From Haloterrigena salifodinae (GTDB lineage: Archaea > Halobacteriota > Halobacteria > Halobacteriales > Natrialbaceae), in assembly GCF_003977755.1 (NCBI RefSeq), contig NZ_RQWN01000003.1:186001-250000 (forward strand): a DNA stretch of 64,000 bases, written 5' to 3'. A model generated the notes under the pieces. It was not told where the DNA came from. It did not search any database and saw only the letters and a program-made list of their open reading frames with translations. Both the position numbers and the translations under genes were made by a program. Shown here one piece after another: positions 13,098 to 15,773 of this stretch. The stretch's first letter is position 1; the number at the start of each line of letters is the position of its first letter.

Positions 13098-13355
13098 GGG
13101 CGCCTTGAGGGCTGATCCGGTCGCCGTCTTTACTGACTCGAGACGATTGCCAAGTGTGGCAGCCGATTTTCGGTCGGGTTTCGCTCGGCATAGCCACGCC
13201 GACCGTTCGGCCCGAATCGAGAAACGGACTTTCCTATTCTTTGGAGAAAGGGTGATTCTACGGCAACACCATATAAGTCAATTTAATATAAAGTATAGTT
13301 ATTTATACTAAGACACATAGAAAAAATTAATCCATCCCATATGTATATTTCATAT
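13098..13355. other. AT-rich leader of the halocin-like islet
   Basis: Composition drops abruptly from GC-rich to AT-rich at about 13230. The part 13270-13345 is almost all A and T with several possible TATA boxes (for example ATATAAAG, TTTATAC). No gene is seen. Confidence 0.5.
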
Positions 13356-14216
13356 ATGTCTGGAGAAAAAGACATTAGTCGACGAAAGATAGTCCAGTCT
13401 CTTGGGATCGGAGTCGGTACTATAGGACTTGCAGGACAGGGGAATGCGAAACCTAGTGAGACGGATGATTATGAATACGAGCGATTAGAACTCACCGGAA
13501 AGCAACAAAACCGGCTTATTGGTAAAGCGAAATCGGACGCGGAGTTCAAATCACTTGAAAGAGACATGGTCTCTCGTGGATATCAGATTAAAGGGAAGCC
13601 ACGAGTCTTTCAAGCAAGAAAACGGTCTGCTTCAGAAATAAAGGTTTTAGCTCAGGGAGTATTATTCTCACTTTCGGCGGATGAGTATGACGCGGGATAC
13701 CTACAGTGGAGAGAAAATAGCGACCCAACCGGAGCTGTTTTTAAGGGGAGCACCCTCTCATCACTCCCAGGGTTAATTAATGCAACTACAGAAGACTGGG
13801 AAGAAATGGAATCAATGCGAATGATATCCGCTAACTCGGATATAGCATTTTTATCCGAGAGTGAAGCGAAAAGAGAAGGATATTCAGCGTCAGAACCGGT
13901 TGTAGTTGATCAACAACATAACTCAGTCATAAACACTGTCGCATCGGTACAAAGCAGTTATGAGGCCTGTATATTAGACTGCGCAGGTCCACTCGGAGAA
14001 GCTTCGGCTTTAATCGGATGCGGAGCTTGTGCTGGTTCCGTAAATCCGTTAGCTTGTTTCGATTGTCTTCTCGGTATTGGAGAAGGGGCCTGCTGTGTAG
14101 GTGCCTGTTCTGATCCAGATGGTACGTTGTGTAATGCTGCTTCCTCGTTGATTTTCTTAGGTGGTATTGCGCTCACAGTCCTTGCCGGGTGTAATAACGA
14201 TGACTGCTCGTTCTAA
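13356..14216 (+). CDS. halocin C8-like microhalocin precursor (Tat-exported, Cys-rich C-terminus)
   Basis: 286 residues if started at the ATG at 13356, which places the twin Arg of SRRKIVQSLGIGVG at 9-10; an ATG 15 bases earlier is also possible. A Tat signal is followed by a polar domain (LTGKQQNRLIGKAKSDAEFK, then EFKSLERDMVSRGYQ) of the kind seen in halocin-like precursors. From Cys205 to the end, 82 residues hold 12 cysteines among small hydrophobic residues (for example CLLGIGEGACCVGAC). Halocin C8 is made from a 283-residue precursor with a 76-residue, 10-Cys C-terminal peptide, so size and layout match closely. In that system the N-terminal part gives immunity. The gene is very AT-rich compared with all neighbours, which points to recent transfer. 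The mature cut site is not visible. Confidence 0.72.
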   Translation: MSGEKDISRRKIVQSLGIGVGTIGLAGQGNAKPSETDDYEYERLELTGKQQNRLIGKAKSDAEFKSLERDMVSRGYQIKGKPRVFQARKRSASEIKVLAQGVLFSLSADEYDAGYLQWRENSDPTGAVFKGSTLSSLPGLINATTEDWEEMESMRMISANSDIAFLSESEAKREGYSASEPVVVDQQHNSVINTVASVQSSYEACILDCAGPLGEASALIGCGACAGSVNPLACFDCLLGIGEGACCVGACSDPDGTLCNAASSLIFLGGIALTVLAGCNNDDCSF

Positions 14217-14294
14217 TATCAACATTAAATAGGAGCTCAGTACCATATTATGGTATGGGGATAGAACTATAGAATTACTACAATAGATTATGAA

Positions 14295-14299
14295 TGGAG
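14295..14299 (+). promoter_or_regulatory. Shine-Dalgarno GGAGG
   Basis: GGAGG lies 5 bases before the ATG at 14305 and decides that start over the ATG at 14290. It is one of few clear ribosome-binding sites here, where most genes look leaderless, and suggests co-transcription with the precursor. Confidence 0.6.
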
Positions 14300-14304
14300 G
14301 CCCC

Positions 14305-14646
14305 ATGGAGATTAAATCAATCGAAGTAAAATACATAACCGGTAATTTATTTCTTGGGATAGTCGTTATTTCACTTATTACTTACTGGCAGTTGTCTGCA
14401 CTTCTCATAGCGACTGTTTCGATTCTTACAGTGATTACCGCGAGCTATGGCTTAAAGCCATTCGGCGATACTATTGCCTATCTTATCTTACAAGCAGCGG
14501 GCTTCTTCGTTTTGGGTATCGTCACCCTGCTCGCTACTGAGAGCACACTTCCGGCACTTGCACTTGTCATCGCTAGTTTAGCTGGTCTGCTGGTCTACGC
14601 TAAGCAGGGGATTCAATGCGGGATTTGGACCCGACGTAATCCGTGA
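14305..14646 (+). CDS. small membrane protein next to the halocin-like precursor
   Basis: 113 residues starting MEIKSIEVKYITGN, with about four hydrophobic helices and a short basic tail (WTRRNP). I do not recognise its family. It shares the low GC of the precursor gene 88 bases upstream and is the last gene of the islet, so it probably came with it. Immunity or a helper in export would fit, but nothing in the sequence proves either. Confidence 0.6.
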   Translation: MEIKSIEVKYITGNLFLGIVVISLITYWQLSALLIATVSILTVITASYGLKPFGDTIAYLILQAAGFFVLGIVTLLATESTLPALALVIASLAGLLVYAKQGIQCGIWTRRNP

Positions 14647-14925
14647 GTCGCGAGGCGCTCGAACCAGTAGCACTCGGTCCCGGTTTCGATCGGTACTCTC
14701 GAGGATGGTGGTCTCTCGGCGGCCGCTCTCCGCAGATGGTCGTTCGCACGAAAGCACCCTCGAAATAGCGGCGCTCGGTAGTATCCCCTACTCGATAACT
14801 TCACAATCGAACTCGTCAGTACTGTCACTAGCGACTGTTCAACGACGATCTCAGCGGGTACGAGTGCTTCTCGTCCCGACAGCGGTATCGAAACGGGAGT
14901 TCATGGACGCAAAACGTCGCACCAG
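14647..14925. other. gap after the halocin-like islet
   Basis: Composition returns to GC-rich within about 50 bases after 14646. No gene, RNA or integrase remnant is recognised, and the flanks show no obvious direct repeat. Confidence 0.4.
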
Positions 14926-15630
14926 CTACCGAGAGAGCAGGCTGCGGGCCGTCGTCTCGTAGCCCTCGGGCACGATATCGGCGAGCGCGTCGGGGCCTGT
15001 CTCGCCGTTGGCGGCGACCAGGTACGTGCGGCCGGGTTCGTCGCCGTAGACGCCCTGAAAGTCGTAGACGAAGCCGTAGACGTCGATGTCGTCGGGGACA
15101 TCCGTGGCGTCGCAAAGCGAGCGCACCTGATAGTCGACGTTGTACTCGACGAGCTGATTGATCACCCGCGCCTCGTCCGCGTCGGTGTCGATCAGTCCGC
15201 TCTCGAGGGCCTCCTCGACGACGGGCACGAGCTGGTCGACCCACTTGTCGACGCCCTGCGGGCCCGGCGGTTCCTCGCCGGTCGCGACGTGGTAGGCCGC
15301 GGTGACGGCGCCGCAGCCGGTGTGGCCGACGACGGCGACGACGTCGGTGCCGGTGTGATGGATTGGGTAGAGGACGCCGCCGTCGACGATCCGCTTGCCG
15401 GCGTCCTCGTCCCAGATCTGGTTGCCGATGTTGCTCGGCGTGAAGACCGCTCCCGGGCGTTCGATGCCCCACATACCCTCGTGAGAGACTCGCGAGTCCG
15501 AACAGCAGATCGCGACGACGGTCGGGTGCTGGCCCGTCTGCACCGCCGCGAAGTAGTCCTCGGGCAACGCCTCGACGTGGCGCTCGTTGCCGGCGAGCAG
15601 GTTCTCGAGCGTGTCCCGATCGGATCCCAT
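14926..15630 (-). CDS. beta-class carbonic anhydrase
   Basis: 234 residues. The zinc and catalytic dyad residues of beta-carbonic anhydrases are all present: CSDSR gives Cys43, Asp45 and Arg47, and HTGCG gives His103 and Cys106. It should interconvert CO2 and bicarbonate in the cytoplasm. The ATG at 15628-15630 gives the family start MGSDRDTLENLLAGN. It lies 1.8 kb from dabA, separated only by the AT-rich islet, so before that insertion the two may have been close neighbours. A free cytoplasmic anhydrase would dissipate a bicarbonate pool made by DAB, so the two may serve different conditions. Confidence 0.93.
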   Translation of the reverse strand: MGSDRDTLENLLAGNERHVEALPEDYFAAVQTGQHPTVVAICCSDSRVSHEGMWGIERPGAVFTPSNIGNQIWDEDAGKRIVDGGVLYPIHHTGTDVVAVVGHTGCGAVTAAYHVATGEEPPGPQGVDKWVDQLVPVVEEALESGLIDTDADEARVINQLVEYNVDYQVRSLCDATDVPDDIDVYGFVYDFQGVYGDEPGRTYLVAANGETGPDALADIVPEGYETTARSLLSR

Positions 15631-15773
15631 AACGAGACGTACACGAACGGCGACCAAAAAGGTTCGACCGCTGCTGGCCGCGGCCGCGCCGACCTCGCGT
15701 CTGGATCGACGGTCGACCGTTCGTCATCTTCCGCGAGCCCAACGTTCACCCGTCGGGGCGCCCTCGTACGCGT

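Follow-up and report, generated by a model that had tools for sequence, protein, structure and literature searches.

A probable divergent halocin-C8-like precursor gene and its small membrane-protein neighbour in an AT-rich segment of a haloarchaeal genome

The window, by which the whole 64-kb stretch of DNA analysed is meant (C3:186001-250000, on contig C3 of a 4.96-Mb genome), contains two adjacent forward-strand open reading frames, ORF1 and ORF2, whose features and neighbours are collected in Table 1. An alternative in-frame ATG upstream of the ORF1 start, at 13341, would lengthen the product to 291 aa. The N-terminus of ORF1 begins ...ISRRKIVQSLGIGVGTIGLAGQGNAKP, with twin arginines followed by a hydrophobic stretch; the Pfam TAT_signal model gave no match to ORF1, and the twin-arginine signal was assigned by inspection only. 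All 12 cysteines are located at residues 205-284 and none elsewhere, so that both the reading frame and the Cys positions bear out the 286-residue Tat-type protein with a Cys-rich end given in a preliminary description of this DNA. The small membrane protein with its own GGAGG, placed after ORF1 in the same description, was confirmed by hydropathy, which gave four membrane segments. No meaningful match to ORF1 or ORF2 was found in NCBIfam and Pfam, those to TraC and PriA being far under cut-off, and no relative of the window proteins was returned by a protein search of viral contigs, the contigs of 84,980 genomes, plasmids and phages.

Table 1. Positions of the genes and sequence features of the locus, numbered from the first letter of the window
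Feature	Position	Strand or side	Basis
dabA-like gene	ends 13097	upstream flank	name by sequence and preliminary description, without family-library test
Upstream AT-rich region	13230..13355	+	composition, sequence reading
TATA-like stretch TTATTTATAC	~13303-13312	+	sequence reading
ORF1, 286-aa Tat-type precursor	13356-14213, stop to 14216	+	ORF reading, N-terminal homology
Predicted twin-arginine signal peptide of ORF1, SRRKIVQSLGIGVGTIGLAG, residues ~1-33	13356..13454	+	inspection of sequence
Conserved N-terminal motif of ORF1, ELTGKQQNRLIGKAKSDAEFKSLERDMVSRGYQI, residues ~44-79	13485..13592	+	profile match to post-signal region of halocin-C8-like precursors
C-terminal 82 residues of ORF1, 12 Cys, no Lys/Arg, presumed mature peptide, core CGAC-x8-CFDC (tandem CxxC)	13968..14213	+	Cys pattern
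GGAGG, ribosome-binding site of ORF2	14296-14300	+	sequence reading; 4 nt before ATG
ORF2, 113-aa membrane protein, ~4 segments	14305-14643, to 14646 with stop	+	ORF reading, hydropathy count
Carbonic-anhydrase-like gene	14926-15657	opposite strand to ORFs, downstream flank	name by sequence and preliminary description

The segment 13201-14600 is the GC minimum among the 1.4-kb stretches of the window (0.435-0.44 versus 0.648 overall), with values of 0.462 for ORF1 and 0.451 for ORF2. The onset of this change lies near 13230, as had been stated, and the return, described as sharp at 14650, was found to be gradual over ~14500-14900. The TATA-like TTATTTATAC upstream of ORF1 is a plausible archaeal promoter. 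No flanking repeats, Rfam RNAs or tRNAs marking a mobile element were detected around the locus, and the two flanking genes were as previously named, their names resting on sequence and on the preliminary description.

The comparison with close relatives suggested there was carried out on five sampled congeners, and the ORF1 precursor was absent from all five. The junction between the dabA-like and carbonic-anhydrase-like genes (13098-14925 in the window; loci L044-L048 in the congeners) is occupied in three of them by a gene for a membrane protein of ~221 aa with normal GC, and in the other two by a response-regulator-like gene and by an NAD-binding-like and winged-helix-regulator-like pair (names by eye). 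Because three congeners hold one different gene and two hold others, the junction is a variable site and not a clean empty site; the cassette lies at the position proposed for it, and its insertion there is putative. On this distribution the cassette is strain- or species-specific.

Searching full-length ORF1 against 125 genomes of the same family returned weak matches (E 6e-6 to 0.009), mostly confined to the N-terminal 90 residues, and inspection identified six of these as precursors of ~290-335 aa with Cys-rich C-termini. Two of the six, L002 and L003, first recruited by N-terminal similarity, score above cut-off with TIGR04449, the model of the halocin C8 domain (33.7 and 47.9 bits, cut-off 24). 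This model was searched over 391 genomes of the class, of which 42 gave a match above cut-off; the window genome is one of these, with two matches. A profile of ~60 post-signal residues was built from 15 TIGR04449-selected precursors, picked without reference to the window and with the window excluded. Applied to the 4.96-Mb genome, this profile placed ORF1 second (E 3.6e-4, profile positions 12-45), behind the genome's own halocin C8 homologue (E 6.8e-16) and ahead of a third match at noise level (E 0.59). The ORF1 score of 24.5 bits was reached by none of 9,416 composition-preserving shuffles (best shuffle 13.8), and hhalign, run with signal peptides removed, aligned the same 42 residues (P 6.5e-7) using an alignment that included L002 and L027, both N-terminally similar to the window protein.

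The common motif is roughly ELTGxxxxxLxxxAxxxxEFxxLxxxxxxxG, and in a single-sequence AF2 model of ORF1, a very poor model of very low confidence (mean pLDDT 38), it spans a helix at 48-57, a loop and a second helix at 61-73. A paper to which PMC11509114 refers, Mei et al. 2008, names in its title a helix-loop-helix at the N terminus of HalI as essential for immunity, and the conserved motif of ORF1 would by analogy be its counterpart. With the wider precursor superfamily ORF1 was found to have in common this conserved post-signal region, detected by a profile built without the window, a twin-arginine signal peptide recognised by inspection, and a Cys-free N-terminal half followed by a Cys-rich end, which measures ~76-100 residues across the superfamily.

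The C-terminal half gave a different result. TIGR04449 (halocin_C8_dom, cut-off 24 bits) did not match ORF1 at E 10 or better, and the search of the Cys-rich end against halocin C8-like proteins proposed in the preliminary description ended without a halocin-family match. The mature peptide of halocin C8 contains 10 cysteines. The spacing of the halocin C8 type (2,7,3,7,13,7,8,8,5) is not kept by ORF1, whose 12 cysteines are spaced 3,12,2,8,2,8,0,3,7,19,4, in agreement with the different Cys pattern noted earlier. By its curated definition, the halocin C8 family does not include ORF1.

Several C-terminal module types occur among the precursors recruited by the N-terminal region or by TIGR04449, and across these precursors the Cys-rich end varies strongly and the N-terminal motif is conserved. 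The tandem-CxxC module, with an invariant core of two CxxC a short loop apart and another Cys before them, was found in 15 other precursors from several genera, and the CGAC-x8-CFDC of ORF1 resembles this core. A tandem-CxxC profile built without the window, from members picked by eye after the window had been seen, matched the ORF1 C-terminus weakly (7.8 bits; 1 of 10,000 shuffles scored as high or higher), and the same profile gave at most 1.6 bits on 20 TIGR04449-type C-termini, all below ORF1. With a first, earlier C-terminal profile, 14 of 3,000 shuffles were at or above the window score. In the window's own genome the tandem-CxxC profile without the window did not recover ORF1 at E 10 or better. 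Given this choice of members and the failed genome-wide recovery, the placing of the ORF1 C-terminus with this second module is suggestive only. Ten precursors that are not of the halocin C8 type, most of them tandem-CxxC, gave no halocin match in NCBIfam, and Pfam gave at most sub-threshold TAT-signal or unrelated matches on eight precursors.

Other architectures were also seen. L011, L060, L064 and L143 have a C-terminal module of another type, which is poor in Cys and in which a hydrophobic, PEPGSTA-like segment is conserved, and in L011, L060 and L143 a 2-segment membrane protein lies downstream of the precursor. A further Cys module (CVSYITEEC..VNWSC..) with a related layout was present in L150, L074 and L129, the last from G023, a congener of the window genome. 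L065 and L069, and also L072, L076 and L078, encode a twin-arginine protein of ~200 aa that has the common N-terminal region and lacks a Cys-rich end; in L065 and L069 a gene for a Gly-rich protein of 175-181 aa with membrane segments begins 2 nt after it, as if leader and effector were split between two genes.

A companion was defined as an ORF of 40-140 aa with at least 2 membrane segments and a start within 130 nt of the precursor stop. Such a gene follows 22 of 55 non-redundant precursors, comprising 7 of 14 of the tandem-CxxC type (window included) and 15 of 41 others. In the controls it was found for 7 of 55 on the convergent strand, which is not empty, and, within the same loci, for 12 of 1,933 random same-strand windows; among the long ORFs of the window the count was 1 of 102. 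The compact two-gene set of the preliminary description is a recurrent design, because companions follow 22 of 55 precursors against a background of about 1%. Within three precursor groups the companions are homologous (L014, L021 and L031 with L020 and L032; L005, L055 and L057; L011, L060 and L143), which is the pattern that would be expected of cognate immunity proteins. ORF2 has no significant homologue among the other companions; its one clear, distant relative is L083 (G003:C2:342101; 34% over 61 residues, E 1e-6), a frameshifted gene in a GC-rich setting that adjoins no precursor.

Low GC relative to the flanks is a common property of the halocin-C8-like precursor superfamily: among 56 precursors the mean offset is -0.084, with 57% at least 0.05 lower than their flanks, and the window precursor, at -0.229, is close to the extreme of -0.24.

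The window genome also contains an intact halocin C8 homologue (L080, G000:C3:535000-539000) of 283 aa, the last 76 residues of which include 10 Cys and score 56.1 bits with TIGR04449. Its identity to a homologue of Haloterrigena salina JCM 13891 is 95%, which places the host with Haloterrigena/Natrinema. A relative in G050 of exactly 283 aa, likewise with 10 Cys in its last 76 residues (TIGR04449 57.6 bits), is 89% identical to it across those residues; these figures equal those for ProC8 and halocin C8, the lengths as in PMC11509114 and the Cys count as in the preliminary description. This bona fide homologue has no membrane gene of the companion kind directly downstream. Elsewhere in the same genome, L079 (G000:C7:37500-40500) is a precursor in a 321-aa frame with 8 C-terminal Cys, and L081 (G000:C2:553000-556500) holds a C-terminal halocin C8-type fragment at C2:554500 in a 134-aa open frame that looks truncated.

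Compared with halocin C8 (halC8; TIGR04449), ORF1 is alike in its hydrophobic Cys-rich C-terminus (82 aa and 12 Cys versus 76 aa and 10 Cys), its Tat-type start and its post-signal N-terminal motif, and differs in its tandem CxxC spacing, in its lack of a TIGR04449 match, in the absence of Lys and Arg from the C-terminal part and in the membrane gene directly downstream. The lengths are also close, 286 aa for ORF1 versus 283 aa for ProC8, from which the 76-aa halocin C8 derives (PMC11509114). The model NF040679 (halocin_of_epi, halocin C8 precursor-like protein) describes a similar overall precursor idea and did not match ORF1; on L002, which is N-terminally similar to ORF1, it scored a weak 19.7 bits (cut-off 200).

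In view of its N-terminal homology and anatomy, together with its distribution and the layout of the two genes, ORF1 is best read as a divergent member of the wider halocin-C8-like precursor superfamily, and the locus probably makes a divergent-class halocin-C8-like (microhalocin-type) bacteriocin, for which export, cleavage, killing and immunity are modelled on halocin C8. Of the diverged microhalocin put forward in the preliminary description, the N-terminal kinship with halocin-C8-type precursors was upheld by profile, hhalign and shuffles; the label 'microhalocin' rests on the N-terminal half and the overall anatomy, because the C-terminal half is without a halocin-family match. In the proposed mechanism, ORF1 would be exported via the Tat pathway, after which a cut would separate the N-terminal half, free of Cys, from the Cys-rich ~80 residues at the C-terminus. 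The latter would fold to a compact, hydrophobic, disulfide-bonded peptide whose target is the cell envelope of competitors among the haloarchaea. The N-terminal half would keep the precursor silent and probably add self-immunity via its conserved helix-loop-helix motif, in the manner reported for HalI in halocin C8. ORF2 is a probable immunity or accessory protein and would most likely add immunity or help processing, its function being the least certain step of the explanation.

ORF1 could instead be an exported Cys-rich protein without an antagonistic role, serving in redox chemistry, metal binding, the envelope or adhesion and having only a general Tat N-terminus in common with halocin precursors. 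CxxC pairs such as those in ORF1 commonly mark redox or metal sites, and the missing halocin match of the C-terminal half would also be explained; the N-terminal match, however, lies outside the signal peptide and is specific within the genome, and a gene that is patchily distributed, AT-rich, highly divergent and followed by a membrane gene is more in keeping with a bacteriocin than with a housekeeping protein, making this reading unlikely. A good deal less probable is a protease-activated precursor whose killing part is an N-terminal helical fragment and not the Cys-rich end. The precedent is HFX_0892 (HmHapP) of Haloferax mediterranei, from which halolysin releases a helical N-terminal 45-residue peptide that lyses haloarchaea (PMC12893001), and ORF1 has a predicted two-helix N-terminal segment, of low confidence. 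By description, HFX_0892 is a secreted haloarchaeal precursor activated by extracellular proteolysis, as ORF1 would be, with the difference that in HFX_0892 the N-terminal 45 residues are active and no Cys-rich module is described (PMC12893001). Against such an arrangement in ORF1, a variable Cys-rich end with a conserved N-terminal motif is the pattern of a constant leader or immunity part with a variable effector, and the active part of halocin C8 is C-terminal (PMC12893001, discussion). That the locus is the remnant of a halocin-like gene, decayed or orphaned and left unexpressed in AT-rich intergenic DNA, is very improbable: its AT-richness and the truncated halocin-domain fragment in the same genome would fit, but ORF1 and ORF2 are both intact with plausible signals and ORF1 shows a structured composition by codon position (GC1/2/3 0.54/0.47/0.37).

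Beyond the divergent bacteriocin precursor favoured here, it is quite possible, if not yet probable, that haloarchaea possess a large, mostly unannotated, cassette-like superfamily in which a constant Tat leader and N-terminal domain is combined with many unrelated Cys-rich effector modules, often accompanied by a small membrane partner that confers cognate immunity; the locus in the window would represent one of these module types, covered by no current family model. Few halocins are known by sequence, and current models detect only the halocin C8-type C-terminal module. The common N-terminal region provides a search handle for precursors with a killing half of no relation to halocin C8, and the frequently following membrane gene is a testable candidate for self-protection; with this handle and this candidate, the extent and the immunity logic of archaeal peptide warfare become directly testable.
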